Below are positions 2,101 to 36,323 of a stretch of DNA of 36,323 bases, in pieces. Position 1 is the stretch's first letter. Each line of letters begins with the position of its first letter. Under the pieces are notes generated by a model. The model saw nothing but the letters and a program-made list of their open reading frames with translations. It searched no databases and was not told where the DNA came from. The stretch comes from a virus. The stretch covers positions 1-36,323 of IMG/VR virus record IMGVR_UViG_3300023220_000082; one strand, given 5' to 3'. The translations under genes were made by a program, and so were the position numbers.

Positions 2101-2779
2101 GAATGTAGGATTATTTGATGAGCCTTCTACTGTAGTAGGTAATTCTAGTAAGGATGTTAAGACTGCCCTTTCGCTTCTAACAAAGGCGGGGGGGGCCTTA
2201 ACTAAGTACCAGTGGAACACCTTGCAGAACGAGCAGGAGTTTAACACTGTTGCAGATCAAGAAGCTTATGTTATATCGACGATTATAGATGATGATGATT
2301 ATAGTCGGTTAATGCCAGGAACTGAATGGGATAGATCAAATTTCAGAAAGATGAACCAGGTTAACCCTGCTGAGTGGGGATTGCTTAAAGGTGGTCTTGC
2401 CTCTACCGTAGGGATTACAAAGTTTATTCGTCAGCGTGGCGATAGCTTTATTATTAATCCAACGCCCGGATCAATTGAGACTTTGGTTATAGAGTATATA
2501 TCTAATAAGTGGATCAACGCTGCATCTGGAGGAGCTAAACAAAGCACCTTCCTTGATGATGGCGATACGACTGATTTCGACGAGACTTTATTACAGATGT
2601 CTTTAGAGTGGCGATTGTTATCAAGATTTAAACTTCCTTTCGGCACTGCGTTAAAAGAATACGAGGATTATCTGGACGACACCCTGGCTGGGGATACTCC
2701 TTCTGAGGATTTACACTTCGGACATGATAGAATACTTGTTCCAGTTGCTAACACACCAGATACAGGAGTTGGTCTATAA
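2066..2779 (+). CDS. Head-to-tail adaptor (gp4/adaptor-like)
   Basis: The N-terminus has a short helix, VLTIVQEAIKNVGLFD, then a helical KTALSLLTKAGGALTKYQW. A middle stretch contains SFIINPTPGSIETLVIEYIS, and the C-terminal half has a helix with LEWRLLSRFKLPF followed by KEYEDYLDD. This N-terminal helix, beta domain and late helical pair are typical of podovirus and siphovirus adaptor proteins that bind under the portal. Its position just before the tail hub agrees. It starts inside the previous gene at ATG 2066 behind AGGAAAG, and its TAA overlaps the next ATG. A run of eight G at 2188-2195 lies in the coding sequence, but the frame reads through intact. Confidence 0.65.
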   Translation: MTVLTIVQEAIKNVGLFDEPSTVVGNSSKDVKTALSLLTKAGGALTKYQWNTLQNEQEFNTVADQEAYVISTIIDDDDYSRLMPGTEWDRSNFRKMNQVNPAEWGLLKGGLASTVGITKFIRQRGDSFIINPTPGSIETLVIEYISNKWINAASGGAKQSTFLDDGDTTDFDETLLQMSLEWRLLSRFKLPFGTALKEYEDYLDDTLAGDTPSEDLHFGHDRILVPVANTPDTGVGL

Positions 2780-4284
2780 TGCTAGCTCACCGGGCATTAG
2801 CACAAGAACAGAACTCAACAGGCTTGATACAGGTTGTTGGTGCGCCCGAAGGTGGTTGGAATACTCGTGATAATATAGGCTCTATGTTAGAAATAGACGC
2901 TATTGAGCTGGATAACTTCTTTCCTGATACGGGAGGAGTAAAGAATAGGAACGGACATACCGAATGGGCCACAAGCTTTGGCACAGGTGGCACTATAGCA
3001 GAATTTAGGTCGGGTAGTACAAGAACCGGAATTGCGGGCGCTGGTGGCAAGATATGGAGCTTTAACAGCACAACGGCTGCACAGGCTCCTGTTGAGCTAG
3101 GAACCGGCTTTTCCAATAATAGGTGGCAGACAAGAAACTTTAAACTTAACCTAATGTTTGTTAATGGGGCGGACGTTCCGCAGATATATGATGGTTCCAC
3201 GTTAGGAGCTATGACTATAACCGGTGATTTGTCGGGGTCTGAAAGTGGTATTGATGGTATTACAGATCATAAGAGCCGCGTTTATATGTGGAATACAGGC
3301 GAAGCTAAGTTTTATTATGGTGATGTTAATGCTATTGCGGGAGACTTTACAGAGTTTCCATTAGACAGAGTAGCAAGTGGTAACTTACTGATTATGACTA
3401 CGGTCTCATTTGATACAGGTAATGGATTAGATGATTTTGCAGCCTTTATCATGGATAATGGTGAGGTTCTTTTATATCAAGGCTCGAACCCTGGCTCTGC
3501 AAGTGATTGGTCATTAATGCAAAGATATGAAATACCTAGGCCGATTGACGTAAGGGGTGTTGCTAGATTTGGTGGCGATGCTATCCTTATTACGGAAACA
3601 GATTTCCTTCCTTTATTAGCGTATGCGACTGCCAAGCCTGAGAATAGAACATTGAGTAAGTTAAGTGGAGCGGTTAAAGCTGCGGTTGATTCGTTTGAGA
3701 CAAACTCAGGCTGGGAAGCTCATTTATATAATAAGGGCAAGTGGCTGTTTATGAATGTTCCTGTAGGCGGTTCTTCATATGAACAGTATGTATTTAATAC
3801 CGTTACGCGAGCAGCAACTAGATTCACTGGAATGGATGGTTCTGCTTGGGGCGTTGTTAACGATAGACTGTTTTTGTTTAAGGGCACTGTTTTATATAGG
3901 GCCGATGATGGCTTGAATGACGATGATGCAGATATAGACTTACACGCCAAGCAAGCTTTTACCTTTCTACAGAATCCTAATAATAAGGCGTTTAGTAGAT
4001 TTGATGCATTAATTGAAAGTCGCGGTACTGTTAATCTTAGTTATACGACGGCTGTAGACTTTGGTCAGGCGCAAACAGCACAAACAACGTCTAGTGAATC
4101 AACCGGTACACCATGGGGCAGTCCTTGGAGTAGTCCTTGGAGCAGTGAGATAAGAACTAAAACTATAAGTTTTGAAGTTTCAGCTAAGGGTAGATCAATC
4201 TCAGCTATTTTAGATGTGTCAATAAAGAATCAAGAATTAGCGTGGTTATCTAGTAACTATAGCTTTGATATACAAGTCGGATGA
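2779..4284 (+). CDS. Tail hub/nozzle protein (P22 gp10-like beta-propeller type)
   Basis: A 501-residue, beta-rich protein. The N-terminus has APEGGWNTRDNIGSM then ELDNFFPDTGGVKNRNG, a signature I associate with podovirus tail hub or nozzle proteins. Next comes a propeller-like series with LMFVNGADVPQIYDGST, DHKSRVYMWNTG and GEVLLYQGSNPG. A Ser/Pro/Trp repeat (WGSPWSSPWSS) near residues 450-460 precedes a final beta domain. It would close the portal/adaptor channel and hold fibres. It starts at a TAATG overlap and ends overlapping the GNAT-like gene (ATGA). Confidence 0.65.
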   Translation: MLAHRALAQEQNSTGLIQVVGAPEGGWNTRDNIGSMLEIDAIELDNFFPDTGGVKNRNGHTEWATSFGTGGTIAEFRSGSTRTGIAGAGGKIWSFNSTTAAQAPVELGTGFSNNRWQTRNFKLNLMFVNGADVPQIYDGSTLGAMTITGDLSGSESGIDGITDHKSRVYMWNTGEAKFYYGDVNAIAGDFTEFPLDRVASGNLLIMTTVSFDTGNGLDDFAAFIMDNGEVLLYQGSNPGSASDWSLMQRYEIPRPIDVRGVARFGGDAILITETDFLPLLAYATAKPENRTLSKLSGAVKAAVDSFETNSGWEAHLYNKGKWLFMNVPVGGSSYEQYVFNTVTRAATRFTGMDGSAWGVVNDRLFLFKGTVLYRADDGLNDDDADIDLHAKQAFTFLQNPNNKAFSRFDALIESRGTVNLSYTTAVDFGQAQTAQTTSSESTGTPWGSPWSSPWSSEIRTKTISFEVSAKGRSISAILDVSIKNQELAWLSSNYSFDIQVG

Positions 4285-4682
4285 AGGTATTTACTTCAGA
4301 AGATTACGGCATGATCAAGAGTTGGTGGGAAGGTCATGACGCTCCTGTAGTGCCTGAACATGGATTATCAAGAACGGGGCTAATAGCATATTCAGGAGAT
4401 AAGCCCGTTGCAGCTGCTTGGTTGTATTCAACTGATAGCTCTGTTGCATTCTTAGAGCATTTTGTTAGCAATCCTGACGCTACGAACAGAGAAAGATCAA
4501 AAGGAATGAACGGATTAATAGGGGCCTTCTTCGGCATAGCTGATGAATTAAAGGTTTCTAAGTTATTTGGCATGGTTAAGCCAAAGAGTTTAGTTAGAAG
4601 GTCGGTAAGTGCTGGCGCAAACATTGTAGAAGAAAACATATATTTATTAGTGAGGAATCAAGATGAGCGGTTTATTCAGTAG
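4281..4682 (+). CDS. GNAT-like protein of the tail module
   Basis: A 133-residue protein with the GNAT outline: MKVFTSEDYGMIKSWW at the start, LIAYSGDKPVAAAWLY, AFLEHFVSNPDA, a helix (MNGLIGAFFGIADELK) and a late KLFGMVKPKSLVRRSV segment. Similar small acetyltransferase-like proteins are common between tail-hub and ejection genes of podovirus-like phages; the substrate is unknown. The acetyl-CoA loop (Q/R-x-x-G-x-G/A) is weak here; the nearest match is RERSKGMNG. The fold may be kept while activity is reduced or altered. Confidence 0.6.
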   Translation: MKVFTSEDYGMIKSWWEGHDAPVVPEHGLSRTGLIAYSGDKPVAAAWLYSTDSSVAFLEHFVSNPDATNRERSKGMNGLIGAFFGIADELKVSKLFGMVKPKSLVRRSVSAGANIVEENIYLLVRNQDERFIQ

Positions 4683-5799
4683 TCCGAAGGCGGCACAACA
4701 AGAAGCTCCAGAAAAGATAGCGCAAGCTGGCCCTACGGGGAGTACGCAGTTTGGTAATTTTGATGAGCAGGGTAATTTTGTGGTTGATCCTTCAATTATC
4801 ACGCAATTAACAACAGAGTCTCCGTTTGGGCAGGAGTTCAGAGAAGGTAGAGAGCAGCTTTCTCTTGGTTTATTAGGTGGATTAAGTCCACAATTAACAG
4901 ATCCACGCTCTGCACAGCAAATAAGAGGTATATTACCTAGCGCACAAGGAACAACCGAAGGGCTTGGTGGGTTTGCAACCCCTGAGTCTATACGAGGCGG
5001 TATACAAACTAGCTTACCTGGTGATTTTGCTGGAGAGGGGCAGAGATTAGAAGACGCTACTTTTGGCAAGTTTGAGAATCTTGTTGGTGGCTCGTTTGAT
5101 GAGCAAAGAGAGAATCTGGCACAAAGTTTAGCCAATCAGGGTATACCTATTGGGTCGGAGGCATTTGAGAGAGAATTTAGCCGCCTAGAGGACTCACAAG
5201 GAAGATTAAGAGAATCTGCTGCATTTGAATCTATAGGAGCTGGCAGAAGCGAACAAGAAAGATTATCACGGTTAGCCCTATCGACCAGAGGACAAGAGTT
5301 TGGCGAAGGGTTTGGTTTGGCGGGGCTTGCGTCTCAAAACAGAGCACAGCAATTCGGAGAAAATCGTAGTCAATTACAGGATGCTCTACAGAAACAACTA
5401 GCCCTCGCCTCTCTTGAACAACAACAGCGCGCTCAACAGTTTGGTGAGTTGGGATCATTGGGTGGCTTTAGCTTGCCGTTTAGTCCTACTCCGATTAGTT
5501 CGTTAGCAGGTAGTTCAACGGGCGCACAGGCGGCTGGGCCGGGCTTCCAGTTATTAGGCCAATTAGGAGGAGCTGCGCTTGCAGCCTCTGACAGAGACTT
5601 AAAAGAAAACATAGAATTAGTAGATGAAACTAATGGGTTTAATATCTATGAGTTTAATTACAAGACCGATCCTGAACACCGTTACAGAGGTGTAATGGCT
5701 CAGGAAGTACAGAAAACACGACCTGATGCGGTTGTTAAGATAGACGGATATCTGGCGGTTATGTATGATCTAATCGGTGTTAAAATGGAGGCGGTGTAA
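4663..5799 (+). CDS. Virion protein with C-terminal peptidase S74 (intramolecular chaperone) domain
   Basis: 378 residues. The first 300 are low in complexity, rich in Gln, Gly, Leu and Glu, with repeated AQQFGE segments and probably helical. The last 70 residues form a short S74 domain: SDRDLKENI from about residue 309, IYEFNYK, YRGVMAQEVQKTRPDAV, and DGYLAVMYDLIGV. S74 domains trimerise and cut themselves off at the Ser of SD-x-x-x-K. Both the Ser and the Lys five residues later are present, so auto-cleavage looks possible. Such proteins usually lie beside ejection genes, as here. The start overlaps the GNAT-like gene. Confidence 0.75.
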   Translation: MSGLFSSPKAAQQEAPEKIAQAGPTGSTQFGNFDEQGNFVVDPSIITQLTTESPFGQEFREGREQLSLGLLGGLSPQLTDPRSAQQIRGILPSAQGTTEGLGGFATPESIRGGIQTSLPGDFAGEGQRLEDATFGKFENLVGGSFDEQRENLAQSLANQGIPIGSEAFEREFSRLEDSQGRLRESAAFESIGAGRSEQERLSRLALSTRGQEFGEGFGLAGLASQNRAQQFGENRSQLQDALQKQLALASLEQQQRAQQFGELGSLGGFSLPFSPTPISSLAGSSTGAQAAGPGFQLLGQLGGAALAASDRDLKENIELVDETNGFNIYEFNYKTDPEHRYRGVMAQEVQKTRPDAVVKIDGYLAVMYDLIGVKMEAV

Positions 5800-12116: not shown

Positions 12117-12404
12117 ATGATTTACTCCAATGTAGATATGACCAGCACAGGAAATGGAGCTTCGCAAGCTGTTACTGGTACAAAGCTAACTGTTCAAATT
12201 ATAAATAAAACGGGCCAACATCAAGGGGGCGTTATAGCCATTCAGGGGTCACTTGATGATTCCAACTGGGGAAAGATTGCTAGAATAAAGGGAAGGAAGG
12301 CACTCGAAAGCTTTGATATTGGTGCTATGAAACACGTAAGATACAGAGTTGTTGAAACTGAGGCCGATACTTCCACAATAGATATTATTATAGAGGACAG
12401 GTAA
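12117..12404 (+). CDS. Small beta protein of the fibre module
   Basis: 95 residues: VDMTSTGNGASQAV, KLTVQIINKTGQHQGGVIAI, GSLDDSNWGKIARIKG, and a C-terminal VRYRVVETEADTSTIDI strand pair. This resembles small jelly-roll proteins found beside phage fibres, where a W and a D-D-S-N-W loop are common. It shares TAATG with the spike gene. Structural role inferred. Confidence 0.5.
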   Translation: MIYSNVDMTSTGNGASQAVTGTKLTVQIINKTGQHQGGVIAIQGSLDDSNWGKIARIKGRKALESFDIGAMKHVRYRVVETEADTSTIDIIIEDR

Positions 12405-14773
12405 TGACTACTAACCAAGAAGGAAAACACGTCTCATTTAGAGCTATATCTGGAACAAGCGGAACCTACAACGGTGATGCTATTGCTTGTTTTAAAGCCG
12501 AGGGAGCTACTGCCAACGATTACAATTCCGCTTTTATACAATGGCTACAGATAAGAACAGGAAGCTCTCAGGGGGACTTAAACGGGCTTCAGTCACTGTT
12601 TGCTATTCAACAAGGTTTTGACTCATGGGGCGATGTTAACACCTTCCCATCTAGCAGTAGCGTAGAAGATGTCTATGTATTAGCAGTCCATTCAAACGGA
12701 GTGGGGCGAGGTACAATTGCAGATGCTCAGCCTTATTTATCTGGAGCTATAAGTGGCGCTAATATCTGGAACGGTTCGGAGTTTGCTCAATTAAATGTTG
12801 GTAGTAACAACGAGGGAAACAATGCTTCAAGCTTTGGCCCTGAAGCTGCTCTTGGTTATTTTATAGGCCAGCAGGAGACAATTAATATAGTTAAGAAGGG
12901 TGTTAATAGTTCTTACTTACACAACGATGGATCAACTACGCTAAGCTGGAATAAAGATATATCTGGTGGTTTGTATAGCGAATTACTTACAGAGATAAGC
13001 GCTGCTAGTGTTAAAACCATGAAGGGGCTTGTTATATTCCTAGGTGGAAATGATAGAAACGGAACAAGAGCACCCGACGTACAAAACAATATAGATGATT
13101 TTATTACTCAGTTTATTGCAGATCATTCTGGTAAATTACATGCTAGCTTCAAGGTTATGGTTATAGGACTAGTTCCCTATGACACTCCTAATGGGTTTGA
13201 AGATGATGTAATGTCTGGTTTAATTGCGGGTGTTGCAGATGCTAATGCAAGCAATCCTACAATCACCACTACATTGCAGTACATATACGATCATGCCGTT
13301 GGTGCAGATGGAGTACATCTAGACTGGGAGGGACAGACTGATCTAGGAGAAAGTTTAGCAAGACAGTACTTAACTATTCCGACTACTGATTACTTTACCT
13401 TTGCAGACTTTATCGCAGATCCGAATGAAGTATTCTCTACGATTGTAACGGATACAGGTGAGGTTACAAGTGTTGTAGGTAATGGGGTAACGTTTAACAA
13501 CGCTGGTTTAACTGGGCCTGATCTTATTACTGACGGTATAGAATCAGGCAAGGATTCCTTTAGATATGCAGGAGCGGAAGTTCTTGCCGGTGCGAATAAT
13601 ACGGATATCAATTATCTACCAACTGAGAAACATGAGTTCCATGTATTGCATAAGATATCTGGTGGAACTACCGGAACTTTATTCAGTAAACGAGATTCAA
13701 CAGCTGGTAATGCTAACTGGCATAGTTTCGTAAGTGGCAATGATCTTAACTATTCAGTGGGTAATGGTGCGGCTTCTGTTACCGAGGAAGCAATTGCCGA
13801 TGGAACCACTCAAGTTACTTACGGTGTAAACGACACGACTAATAAGAGACAGTTTGTTAGAGGCAGACCAGATATAGCAAGTGGAACTCCGGGAGCGGGA
13901 ACCAATGCATTCAAGCCTACTCTAGGTGTAAGGTGGCAGGTAGGTGATACAAGTATAGGCTTTCCGCTAACTGGTGATATAGGATTTTTCGTTACCTGGT
14001 CGGGTAATTTAACCAGGATTCAACGTCGTAGGTTAAATGTTTATTACGCTGCTAACTGGACGCTCTCTAATGGTGCTGTTGAAGATTACGGAACATTGGC
14101 AATGAACCTAGATTCTACTGATGCTTCTAGCTTAACTTTAGATGGGGCTGATGTTACTACATGGGCGGATCAAACGGCCAATAGTAATGATGCCGCTGGT
14201 ACAACCAAACCTTCCTATAGTGCAACAGCTGTTCAAGGCTTGCCAGGAGTAACCTTTGTTAGTGATGGGTCGACTACCTGGGAAAACTTAGTCATAACCG
14301 ACTCAACAAGTTTAAACTGGGCCACACAGAATTTAATAGGTGTTTGTACCTTTGCTACTGACAATGGGAATCAATTTAGGATCCTACAGAAGTGGGGTGC
14401 AGGTCAATTAGAATTTATCTGGAATTACAGAGGGGATCAGTCTCCTGACGATATAAGTATGGGTTATTCAGAAGACGGAACAACTACTGCCTTTGGATCA
14501 CCTAATTTACCATTAAGTTATCCTGGCAGACCACAGTTTATAGATGCTCACCACGACGGAGCTAATCCTGACTTTGCTATTAACATAGCTGAAGATACAG
14601 CTACCGTAGCGGAAGGGGTGAATAACGGAACAACTAACATTACCCTAGGGGCCGTTTCTGGATCTGCATACGAGTTTACTTACCACCAATTCTTGTTTTA
14701 CAGCGCTGAATTGACGGACATAGAGAGATCAAAGGTATTTGATATATTAATAGAAACCTGGAAAAGAACATGA
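12404..14773 (+). CDS. Tail spike with SGNH/sialate O-acetylesterase-like domain and C-terminal lectin-like domains
   Basis: 789 residues. About 85-325 reads as an SGNH/SASA-type carbohydrate esterase: VYVLAVHSNGVGRGT with the nucleophile at Ser97 and Asn98 after it (GQSN is usual; here VHSN), SSFGPEAALGYF, a strand with IFLGGNDRNG (Asn216), and ADGVHLDWEG with Asp302 and His305 as the Asp-x-x-His pair. From about 330 onward two beta-sandwich, LamG/ConA-like regions follow, the second from MNLDSTDASSLTLDGADV. The likely job is binding and deacetylating host surface polysaccharide. It is the largest fibre-module gene and so the main host-range candidate. Confidence 0.75.
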   Translation: MTTNQEGKHVSFRAISGTSGTYNGDAIACFKAEGATANDYNSAFIQWLQIRTGSSQGDLNGLQSLFAIQQGFDSWGDVNTFPSSSSVEDVYVLAVHSNGVGRGTIADAQPYLSGAISGANIWNGSEFAQLNVGSNNEGNNASSFGPEAALGYFIGQQETINIVKKGVNSSYLHNDGSTTLSWNKDISGGLYSELLTEISAASVKTMKGLVIFLGGNDRNGTRAPDVQNNIDDFITQFIADHSGKLHASFKVMVIGLVPYDTPNGFEDDVMSGLIAGVADANASNPTITTTLQYIYDHAVGADGVHLDWEGQTDLGESLARQYLTIPTTDYFTFADFIADPNEVFSTIVTDTGEVTSVVGNGVTFNNAGLTGPDLITDGIESGKDSFRYAGAEVLAGANNTDINYLPTEKHEFHVLHKISGGTTGTLFSKRDSTAGNANWHSFVSGNDLNYSVGNGAASVTEEAIADGTTQVTYGVNDTTNKRQFVRGRPDIASGTPGAGTNAFKPTLGVRWQVGDTSIGFPLTGDIGFFVTWSGNLTRIQRRRLNVYYAANWTLSNGAVEDYGTLAMNLDSTDASSLTLDGADVTTWADQTANSNDAAGTTKPSYSATAVQGLPGVTFVSDGSTTWENLVITDSTSLNWATQNLIGVCTFATDNGNQFRILQKWGAGQLEFIWNYRGDQSPDDISMGYSEDGTTTAFGSPNLPLSYPGRPQFIDAHHDGANPDFAINIAEDTATVAEGVNNGTTNITLGAVSGSAYEFTYHQFLFYSAELTDIERSKVFDILIETWKRT

Positions 14774-31712: not shown

Positions 31713-31852
31713 CCATAAACCCCAGAGATTTAGACTGCACTGTCAAAATATCCAGTCTAGAGCATATGACACACGATGACTATGTTGTGGCCTCTGCGCT
31801 TTTTAGCAAACTATTTGAAGAAGCTTTAAGGAAGTTAGATGCCAGCAGGTAG
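31709..31852 (+). CDS. 47-residue protein before TerS
   Basis: TINPRDLDCTVKISSLEHMT, HDDYVVASALFSKLFEEALR, KLDASR. Its last codons overlap the TerS ATG by 14 bases. Probably helical; function unknown. Confidence 0.4.
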   Translation: MTINPRDLDCTVKISSLEHMTHDDYVVASALFSKLFEEALRKLDASR

Positions 31853-32258
31853 ACCAACGTTATACACAGAAGAACTAGTAGACGACATTATCAATAGACT
31901 AACCGATGGAGAAAGCTTAGTTAAGATATGCGATAGTGATGGTATGCCTAAATGTGCCGTTGTTTACAGATGGTTAGCTCTTCATGAGGAATTTAGTGAT
32001 AGATACGCACGCGCAAGAGCTGATCAAGCTGAACGTTACCTAGACGAGATACTAGAGATAGCTGATAAAGAAGAAGACGTACAGCGTGCTAAACTAAAGA
32101 TAGACACACGTAAATGGACAATGGGCAAGCTTAAACCTAAGAAGTATGGTGACAAACAAACTAATGTATTTGAAGATCCAGATGGCAAAGCTTTAACCCC
32201 TATATTAAATGTCAACCTCACCACAAATAAACCTAACACTACACCAGAAGCAGACTGA
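31839..32258 (+). CDS. terS: Terminase small subunit
   Basis: 139 residues. MPAGRPTLYTEELVDDIINR is the usual start of small terminase subunits of this class, followed by an HTH region (ESLVKICDSDGMPKCAVVYR, WLALHEEFSDRYARAR), a central coil (AERYLDEILEIADKEED), and KWTMGKLKPKKYGDK. It recognises phage DNA and regulates the large subunit. Overlaps TerL by 50 bases. Confidence 0.85.
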   Translation: MPAGRPTLYTEELVDDIINRLTDGESLVKICDSDGMPKCAVVYRWLALHEEFSDRYARARADQAERYLDEILEIADKEEDVQRAKLKIDTRKWTMGKLKPKKYGDKQTNVFEDPDGKALTPILNVNLTTNKPNTTPEAD

Positions 32259-33696
32259 CGCATTAACTACGGTAGCAACTGAGTTACTATATGGTGGTGC
32301 AGCAGGTGGTGGTAAGAGCCACTTGTTTAGAGTAGCTGCTATTATGTGGTGTTCAGAAATACCTGGCTTACAGGTTTACCTATTCAGACGCATAAGAGAA
32401 GACTTAATAAAGAACCACATGGAGGGGCCTAAGGGGTTTAGAGCCTTGTTAGCTCCTTGGGTAGCAAATAAGTTTGTCTCTGTTGTTGATGATGAGATAA
32501 GATTCTGGAATGGCTCTAAGATATACTTGTGTCATTGTAAGGATGAGAAGGATAGATTTAAGTATCAGGGCGCTGAGATACACGTACTATTAATTGATGA
32601 GCTAACCCACTTCACAGAGATAATATACAGGTTCCTACGTTCAAGAGTAAGAATGGTAGGTTTAAAGCTTCCTGACAAGTATAAGGGGATGTTTCCAAGG
32701 ATACTAAACGGAAGCAACCCTGGTAATGTTGGGCATTTGTGGGTTAAGTCATCCTTTATAGATGGTTGTCTACCTTGGGCATTAAGAGAGATGCCTGATA
32801 TAGAAGGTGGTATGTTAAGACAATTCATACCTGCCAAGCTAGAAGATAACCCTTCAATGGAACAAGATGATCCTAGCTACAGAGCTAAGCTTAGAGGTTT
32901 AGGTAGTGAGTCTTTAGTTAAGGCCATGGAAGACGGTGACTGGGACGTTATCGAAGGAGCTTATTTTGATTGCTGGTCTGATAAACTAATAATAAGACCC
33001 TTTGAAATACCCGAAGAATGGACTAAGTTTAGATCCTTTGACTGGGGCTCAGCAAGGCCGTTCTGTTTAGGTTGGTACGCTGTATCAAATGGGTATGAGA
33101 GTGAAGATGGTTTCATTCCTGCTGGTGCTTTAGTTAAGTACAGAGAGTGGTATGGATGCAAGAAGGATGAGAAGACTGGGCGGATAGTCCCTAACGTAGG
33201 CTTGAAGTTAACAACTGAAGAGGTTGCTGACGGTATTATAGAGAGAGAACATGAAGAGTTAAACTATAGCGTTGCTGATCCTAGTATATTTAGTGAGGAT
33301 GGCGGGCCAAGCTTTGCAGAGAGATTTGATAGAAAAGGAATATACTTCCAGAGGGCTGACAATAAACGTATCTCTAAAGGAGATGCTAAGGGGCCAGTGG
33401 GAGGTTGGGATCAAATGCGTGGTAGGATTAAAGGTGAAGAGCGTCCTATGTTATACTTCTTTAATACATGCGTTGACTCAATAAGAACAATACCTGCATT
33501 ACAACATGACGAGAGAAAGCCAGAGGATTTAGATACTAATGGCGAGGATCATGCGGCAGACGAAACAAGATATGCCTGTATGAGTAGGCCGTGGCAAGCT
33601 CCTGAAGCTGAGAAGCCAGAGCCTATAAACACAAGATACTACACGTTTAACGAGTTACTAGAGAGTGATAGGAATGATACTTATGACAGAGTCTAG
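32209..33696 (+). CDS. terL: Terminase large subunit (packaging ATPase/nuclease)
   Basis: 495 residues. Walker A GGAAGGGKS at 29-37, Walker B VLLIDE at 126-131 with the catalytic Glu. The nuclease part has acidic residues in RSFDWGSARP (Asp278), SVADPSIF (Asp357) and the late HAADETRYA region (Asp451 area). It pumps DNA into the prohead through portal and cuts the concatemer. ATG 32209 lies within terS. A 93-base gap follows, then an 11-codon ORF and portal. Confidence 0.95.
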   Translation: MSTSPQINLTLHQKQTDALTTVATELLYGGAAGGGKSHLFRVAAIMWCSEIPGLQVYLFRRIREDLIKNHMEGPKGFRALLAPWVANKFVSVVDDEIRFWNGSKIYLCHCKDEKDRFKYQGAEIHVLLIDELTHFTEIIYRFLRSRVRMVGLKLPDKYKGMFPRILNGSNPGNVGHLWVKSSFIDGCLPWALREMPDIEGGMLRQFIPAKLEDNPSMEQDDPSYRAKLRGLGSESLVKAMEDGDWDVIEGAYFDCWSDKLIIRPFEIPEEWTKFRSFDWGSARPFCLGWYAVSNGYESEDGFIPAGALVKYREWYGCKKDEKTGRIVPNVGLKLTTEEVADGIIEREHEELNYSVADPSIFSEDGGPSFAERFDRKGIYFQRADNKRISKGDAKGPVGGWDQMRGRIKGEERPMLYFFNTCVDSIRTIPALQHDERKPEDLDTNGEDHAADETRYACMSRPWQAPEAEKPEPINTRYYTFNELLESDRNDTYDRV

Positions 33697-33754: not shown

Positions 33755-33790
33755 ATGCCCGTACATAAAAGAGGAAAGCGTAAGAAGTAA
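33755..33790 (+). CDS. 11-residue basic micro-ORF coupled to portal
   Basis: Reads MPVHKRGKRKK, with TGAGGA a few bases upstream. Its TAA overlaps the portal ATG (TAATG), so translation of portal would be coupled to it. The gap 33697-33754 before it has no other gene. A very short, strongly basic peptide could be functional or just a coupling device. Confidence 0.35.
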   Translation: MPVHKRGKRKK

Positions 33791-35934
33791 TGGTTAAAAA
33801 GGACACAGAAAAGTCAACCAATGACTCTGATACGTTCCAATTCTGGATTAAGCAGATAGATGCTGCTGAGCAAGAGCGTAGTGAGTTTGAGGTTACTGGT
33901 CAGAGGATAGTTGACATTTACCGCGTAAGGCGGAAGTTCACATCCACAGCAGACCGTAGAGCTTGGCATGACGTATCACGCGTTAACATATTATATTCCA
34001 ATACAGAGACTGTCTTACCTGTTTTATATAGCAGGACTCCCCAACCAGAAGCTATCGCAACAGATAGCAATGATCTAGAGGCCAAGAGTGCTGCTGAGAT
34101 ATTTGAATCAGCATTGGCTGTAGCTTTAGAAGCTGACAACATAGATGATCTAATGGAGAGCGGAGCTTTGCTTGATTACCTCTTACCTGGTGTTGGTATA
34201 CTCCGAGTAAGCTATGAGCCTATAACTGAAGAGGCGGAAGTTAGATTACCTGTTGTTGAAAAGGATGGTGAGTTCTTCACTGTTGATCCCGATGGAAACG
34301 AAGAAGAGGTTGATGAGAATGACGTTCAGAGTGAGGGGCCTACATTAAGCCCATCAGGTATGTTTGTTGAAAGAGACGGAGAAAGAATTATCTCAGAAGA
34401 GGCTCCTATAACTCACGTACATTGGAAGGACTTTCTGCATGGCTTTGCTAAGAAGTGGGAAGATGTTCCTTGGGAAGCCTTTAGAGGTGATATGACACGA
34501 CCTGAACTTGTGGAGATGTTTGGGGCTAAGGGTAGTGAAGTTAAGATGGACAACGCGTCCCGCTCTAAGAACATTGCCAGGAAAGATAGAAAAGTAAGTG
34601 ATGATTTTGAGACAGCAACAGTTTGGGAAATATGGGATAAGACTAAACGTCAGCGGGTGTTTATATCCCCCGGCTTTGATAAAGGCCCTTTGGATGTAGA
34701 AGAAGACCCACTAGGGTTGAGAGATTTCTTTCCTAACGGCAAGCCTTTATACAGCAACGTAACAACTGACTCGCTTATCCCAATACCCTTTTATAAGCAG
34801 TATGAGGATTTAGTAGCTCTTGAATTGAACGAGATATCTACTAGATCAATGAAGCTTACTAGAGAGTTAAAGCGTAGAGGTGTTTACGATAAATCGTTTA
34901 AGGACTTGCAGAGAATAAAGGATCTAGGTGATAACGGCTTCATAGGTGTAGAGAACTATTCCCGCTTAGTTGAGAAGGGCGGCTTGAATGCTGCATTTCA
35001 GGAGTTAGATAACAGCGGAGTAATTGAGGTTCTTTCTGGTTTAGACAAGAGGAAAGAAGTCATCAAGCAAGAGATATTTGAGATCATGGGGATTGCTGAT
35101 ATTATGCGTGCTGTGAGTGATCCTCGTGAGACACTGGGTGCGCAACAATTAAAAGGAAGGTTTGGGTCTTTAAGGATAAGCAAGAACCAACGTAAAGTTC
35201 AGAGATTTATAAAAGATATATACGCTTTAAAGGCGGAGGTAATGGCTGAGAACTTCTCGCCAGAAACTATAGCTAGACTAGCTAGTGTTGAGCCGCAACA
35301 GGTTGATGCAAGGGGACAGCAGGTCGAGGTATCTCCTGAGCAGCATGTCCGTGAAAAGGTTATGCCGTTTATTCAGGATCAAGAACCACAAGCTATTAAC
35401 GTTGGTATAGAAACGGATTCAACTATTGCTTTAGATGAACAGCAGCAGAAAGAAAACGCTGTAGAGTTTGGAACTGTAATGGCTGAGATGACCGACAGAA
35501 TCCCATCAATGGTACAGGCTTACGGAATTGACTTTACTACTGAGTTAATAATGGAAACAGCTAGGAAGTTTGGCATATCTAGATCATTGGAAGATAAGTT
35601 GCTAGATCAAGCTAAGAAAGCCAAGGAGCAAGAGGGTCAACCACAAGAGCCTAGTATTGAACAGCAGAAACTAGAGCTAGATAAACAGAAGGTGCAGATG
35701 GAAGCCCAGAAGGATCAGGCTGAAATGCAGTTAGAGGTTGCCAAGTTAAAGCTTAAAGACCAGGAATTACAGATGAAAGCTGGTGTTGAGGGTACAAAGG
35801 CGCGTAATGCAGAGAATGTAGTTAACTTTAAAGGATTAGAAACTGCATTGAAGTTTGACAAGCTAGCCTTGGATGAGAAGAAGCTTGCAGCAGAAGCTGC
35901 TAACCCAAAAGATAACGCAATAGTAGGTGCATGA
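33790..35934 (+). CDS. Portal protein (P22-like, long form)
   Basis: 714 residues. RRAWHDVSRVNILYSNTETV, LPVLYSRTPQPEAIATDSND, LLDYLLPGVGILRVSYEP, then IPFYKQYEDLVALELNEIST and IADIMRAVSDPRETLGAQQL are portal features of the P22-like type. The last about 110 residues form a Gln/Lys/Glu-rich coiled coil (EQQKLELDKQKVQMEAQKDQ), like the barrel of long portals. It forms the ring through which DNA enters and leaves. Segment 34670-34814 reappears inverted at the window end. Confidence 0.9.
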   Translation: MVKKDTEKSTNDSDTFQFWIKQIDAAEQERSEFEVTGQRIVDIYRVRRKFTSTADRRAWHDVSRVNILYSNTETVLPVLYSRTPQPEAIATDSNDLEAKSAAEIFESALAVALEADNIDDLMESGALLDYLLPGVGILRVSYEPITEEAEVRLPVVEKDGEFFTVDPDGNEEEVDENDVQSEGPTLSPSGMFVERDGERIISEEAPITHVHWKDFLHGFAKKWEDVPWEAFRGDMTRPELVEMFGAKGSEVKMDNASRSKNIARKDRKVSDDFETATVWEIWDKTKRQRVFISPGFDKGPLDVEEDPLGLRDFFPNGKPLYSNVTTDSLIPIPFYKQYEDLVALELNEISTRSMKLTRELKRRGVYDKSFKDLQRIKDLGDNGFIGVENYSRLVEKGGLNAAFQELDNSGVIEVLSGLDKRKEVIKQEIFEIMGIADIMRAVSDPRETLGAQQLKGRFGSLRISKNQRKVQRFIKDIYALKAEVMAENFSPETIARLASVEPQQVDARGQQVEVSPEQHVREKVMPFIQDQEPQAINVGIETDSTIALDEQQQKENAVEFGTVMAEMTDRIPSMVQAYGIDFTTELIMETARKFGISRSLEDKLLDQAKKAKEQEGQPQEPSIEQQKLELDKQKVQMEAQKDQAEMQLEVAKLKLKDQELQMKAGVEGTKARNAENVVNFKGLETALKFDKLALDEKKLAAEAANPKDNAIVGA
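34670..34814 (+). repeat. Source copy of a terminal inverted duplication (within portal)
   Basis: This 145-base stretch of portal coding DNA is identical to the reverse complement of 36179-36323. Here it lies in intact reading frame, so this copy is the genuine one. Confidence 0.95.
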
Positions 35935-36218
35935 ATATATTTGACTTAAAACAAGGTGGACACCACGCGGCTGCAATGTCTATACCAGAAAAGGCTGCTT
36001 TAAAGATAGAGTTTGCTGCTGGTAATATAGAGCCCGCTATAGTCAACACGCTCAATAAAAGAAACGTTGTTGTAGAAGGTTGGATGAGAATTGAACTAGC
36101 TAGGATGTGGGGTTATACAGACTTCCCCATTACTGAGGTTAAATATAATATCCATAAAGAAGCTGAAGAGCACACTAGACTAAATCCTCATACTGCTTAT
36201 AAAAGGGTATTGGGATAA
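35931..36218 (+). CDS. Head-module protein, 3' end lost to chimeric junction
   Basis: The reading gives 95 residues, but only about the first 82 or 83 are natural. Start MNIFDLKQGGHHAAAMSIPE, then ALKIEFAAGNIEPAIVNTLN and IELARMWGYTDFPITEVKYN. From base 36179 the DNA is the reverse complement of portal, so the final residues and stop codon are artefactual. The ATG overlaps the portal stop. Position after portal suggests a small head gene or the start of a scaffold-region gene; function unknown. Confidence 0.55.
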   Translation: MNIFDLKQGGHHAAAMSIPEKAALKIEFAAGNIEPAIVNTLNKRNVVVEGWMRIELARMWGYTDFPITEVKYNIHKEAEEHTRLNPHTAYKRVLG

Positions 36219-36323
36219 GCGAGTCAGTTGTTACGTTGCTGTATAAAGGCTTGCCGTTAGGAAAGAAATCTCTCAACCCTAGTGGGTCTTCTTCTACATC
36301 CAAAGGGCCTTTATCAAAGCCGG
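36179..36323 (-). repeat. Inverted duplicate of portal DNA at the right end (likely chimera)
   Basis: Exact reverse complement of 34670-34814 over 145 bases, ending at the window edge. It disrupts the ORF at 35931. ACTA near the join (36179-36182) also occurs just before it, a possible microhomology. Most simply an amplification or assembly fold-back. Confidence 0.9.

Follow-up and report, generated by a model that had tools for sequence, protein, structure and literature searches.

A terminal inverted copy of portal-gene DNA in a viral contig, almost certainly an artefact and not a biological feature

The right-hand 145 bases of the contig described here are probably an inverted chimera made in vitro, and the tail is almost certainly an artefact and not a biological feature. 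The window, by which we mean the whole stretch of DNA analysed, is the entire IMG/VR virus record of 36,323 bases, and its end repeats, in inverted orientation and without a single difference, a segment of the record's own portal gene. We regard this as a matter of quality control only: the last 145 bases are to be trimmed and given no biological reading, and the contig is not to be taken as having inverted termini.

Geometry of the inverted copy

When the window was compared with itself, the terminal segment proved to be the reverse complement of the internal portal segment at 145/145 bases (Table 1). Agreement ceases at the join, where 36178 (G) fails to pair with 34815 and five further positions fail too, and the loop between the two arms (34815-36178) measures 1,364 bases. 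A chance origin of such a match is excluded (E 1e-70), and this pair is the only inverted match longer than 17 bases in the window; likewise, a blastn search of the window against itself at E<=1e-2 returned the 145-base pair, one weak 30-base direct match and nothing else. The original prediction had described an exact 145-base inverted copy of portal DNA that breaks the ORF at 35931 and runs to the very edge of the sequence, and our analysis bears out each part of that description: 36178 is the first base to differ, the copy abuts the final base of the complete record, and the ORF takes up codons derived from the copy.

The genuine part of this small ORF comprises 82 codons plus 2 bases; the copy completes codon 83 with its third base and adds 12 residues (LNPHTAYKRVLG) before a stop at 36218, which is not the true end of the small gene. 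The small gene has no homologue by sequence in viral_contigs, phages, PHROGs or Pfam, and for the 29 bases immediately 5' of the join no exact DNA match was found. No structural RNA or tRNA was found.

Table 1. Positions of the inverted copy, its source and the genes near the contig ends
Feature	Position	Strand	Basis
Terminal inverted copy of portal-gene DNA (almost certainly an artefactual fold-back tail)	36179..36323	-	145/145 reverse complement, reaches record end
Source copy within portal gene	34670..34814	+	in frame, portal ORF uninterrupted; segment conserved in relatives
Chimeric join (probable)	36178..36179	.	36178 is the first mismatch
Portal protein gene	33790..35934	+	PHROG phrog_12082 portal protein, 4.5e-133
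Small gene 3' of portal (place of Mx8 gp46), genuine part, cut by join	35931..36178	+	ORF 35931-36218; gene order in L115, L116
Major capsid gene, C-terminal third, cut by left contig end	1..344	+	phrog_9953 major head protein, profile positions 212-326 of 329
Terminase subunits	31839-33696		ORF list and PHROG

Contig ends, gene content and the portal-to-capsid stretch in relatives

The left end of the record lies inside the major capsid gene (the phrog_9953 match covers bases 3-344) and the right end just past the portal gene, so that the record covers only part of a longer map; it is a near-complete genome opened within the head module, and its ends were set by the assembly and do not mark the termini of a virion molecule. 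The arrangement in relatives supports this. In 43 of the 44 relatives in which both genes could be placed, the capsid gene lies downstream of the portal gene after at least 2 kb of other genes, and the circular records Mx8 and MW202489 likewise have the capsid after the portal with at least 2 kb of other genes between. From the portal stop to the equivalent capsid position the distance is 2,563 bases in L028 and 2,004 in both L029 and L030, with a median of 2,526 bases over the 44 loci, among which L104 is an outlier, its portal frame extending to the capsid match. In L028, L029 and L005 the stretch comprises at least one small gene, a gene of ~360-376 codons at the scaffold position and the front part of the capsid gene, an order shared by MW202489 and Mx8. 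Since the nearest relatives have 2.0-2.6 kb between portal and capsid and the window has 244 bases of genuine sequence past the portal stop, roughly 1.8-2.3 kb, including the gene in the scaffold position and the first part of the capsid gene, is missing between the contig ends.

The comparison set includes no conspecific genome, its nearest portals being ~36% identical to that of the window; the phages database yielded no close DNA relatives of the window, and the one relative that the genome scan found, the distant L114, had no match to the capsid within reach. The equivalent of the source copy was found in 66 of 111 related loci, on the plus strand, and inverted in none of the 66. Thus the same inversion in related phages, a check set beforehand, was not found in any locus that carries the segment. 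None of the 111 loci ends in an inverted self-copy of at least 20 bases, which gives a rough base rate only, as some locus ends are not contig ends. Imperfect inverted repeats do occur elsewhere in L111, L099 and L045, with none at the portal-capsid place; those of L111 (several at 2482-5161, 80-112 bases long) are also self-complementary.

Several other genes of the window deserve mention in their own right. The small protein encoded after the capsid (349-813) is 79% identical to its counterpart in L028, as compared to 56% for the capsid fragment and 36% for the portal; judged from these identities it may be mosaic or strongly conserved, and is perhaps a capsid decoration protein. The large terminase (32209-33696) shares 60-71% identity with those of many phages, against only 25-36% for the portals of the same phages, a disparity that suggests possible mosaic exchange between terminase and portal. 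Between the capsid and tail genes lies an MptE-like domain protein (797-1486; Pfam PF01973, 4.3e-17), which is present in some relatives as well (L036, L084, L007 and L014). The product of 4663-5799 is a virion structural protein with a C-terminal Peptidase_S74 intramolecular chaperone domain (3.3e-9), the portion ahead of which resembles head/ejection protein families and not a tail fibre, and the 789-residue protein of 12404-14773 carries a SASA carbohydrate esterase domain (1.3e-7) and is possibly a receptor- or capsule-active tail protein.

Origin of the inverted copy

Because the two copies show zero divergence, whereas the portal shares only ~36% identity with its nearest relatives, the copy must be recent or laboratory-made, and perfect identity is as expected from a laboratory event. 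We infer that it was made by amplification, most likely multiple displacement amplification (MDA) by phi29 polymerase, rather than by assembly alone. During MDA, displaced 3' ends anneal anew to displaced 5' strands close by; of 475 chimeras, more than 85% had an inverted join and a deletion between the joined segments, those segments lay less than 10 kb apart in 337/406 inverted chimeras, and chimeras arose at about 1 per 22 kb of product (PMC1855051). On this view, a growing plus-sense 3' end, having reached about 36178, would have left its template; the freed end would have re-annealed by a few bases, at about 34814, to a displaced strand of plus sense from the same phage DNA, and would then have been extended toward 34670. 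Reads of the chimeric product would have carried the assembly over the join, and the contig would have halted inside the already assembled portal gene. According to a later study, the segments joined in chimeras mostly lie less than 5 knt apart, the distances peaking at 80-280 nt, and more than 95% of chimeras have an overlap of 3-13 nt (PMC5372508). Here the 6-base word AAGAGC is common to both sides of the join; being close to chance (P 0.02-0.09), it was set aside as a priming site, and any overlap at the join would be concealed within the opening bases of the copy (ACTAAATCC...). A point against a chimera is that its product had to be plentiful enough to prevail in the assembly.

Template switching in vitro is most likely and assembly alone less likely. 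An error of assembly without whole-genome amplification, in which the contig end was joined to the opposite portal strand by a few faulty or library-chimeric reads or during scaffolding or contig merging, is an alternative that we think unlikely but would still take seriously. The copy stands exactly at the contig end, where assemblers break, and yet there is no shared word across the join long enough to mislead an assembler, nor is the match continued before 36178; such an origin is possible, explaining the inverted join less well. The length of the copy, 145 bases, is not known as a usual default assembler k. The CheckV authors note that repeats at contig ends are often k-mer-sized, e.g., 55, 77 and 99, lengths among which 145 does not appear (PMC8116208).

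Biological structures fare worse. A real inverted duplication or invertible segment that broke the assembly at the repeat would accord with the fact that inverted repeats do break assemblies and with the position of both contig ends within the portal-capsid interval. Against this, antisense portal DNA would fall between the small gene and the scaffold with loss of reading frame, assembly ran uninterrupted through the internal copy, and the inversion is absent from every relative examined; an invertible segment with flanking inverted sites was rejected, as no exact inverted match longer than 18 bases occurs between portal and capsid in 44 relatives. No recombinase was found among the ten window proteins scanned against each library (PHROGs and Pfam). 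We therefore hold a real inversion to be very improbable, and just as improbable is a phage sub-population that truly carries it, with a rearranged or defective genome that arose by replication fold-back in vivo and has inverted portal DNA breaking into its head module. A genuine inverted or hairpin virion terminus, whether protein-primed as in PRD1 or a telomere as in N15, strikes us as scarcely credible, even with a perfect inverted repeat sitting at the record end, since the left end lacks a copy and lies within the capsid gene, so that the record ends are not genome ends, and since relatives have continuous coding DNA at the same place. Terminases are present, and packaging from concatemers is therefore implied. 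Inverted terminal repeats of the PRD1/phi29 type were rejected, as these have copies at both genome ends, and an N15-type hairpin telomere was rejected as well, for which a palindrome would be expected at the tip and not arms that stand so far apart. The original prediction had preferred a fold-back of amplification or assembly over a true inverted terminus, and this preference is upheld by relatives that run uninverted from portal to capsid, by a left end in mid-capsid and by a geometry that fits published MDA chimeras.

Comparison with known systems

The inverted chimera that we favor resembles those described for MDA by Lasken and Stockwell in 2007 (PMC1855051) in its inverted join, its intervening deletion, its arms less than 10 kb apart and the exactness of its copy, while its loop is longer than the commonest chimera distance of 80-280 nt (PMC5372508). 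With the inverted terminal repeats of PRD1 the window shares an inverted repeat that reaches the record end, but the partner of the window's copy is internal and not at the other end, and the left end lies inside a gene. In gene order the window also matches the head module of Myxococcus phage Mx8 (NC_003085), which runs terminase, portal, small gene, scaffold-position gene and capsid; that of Mx8 is continuous, whereas the window lacks some 1.8-2.3 kb of it, with the fold-back standing at the edge of the gap.
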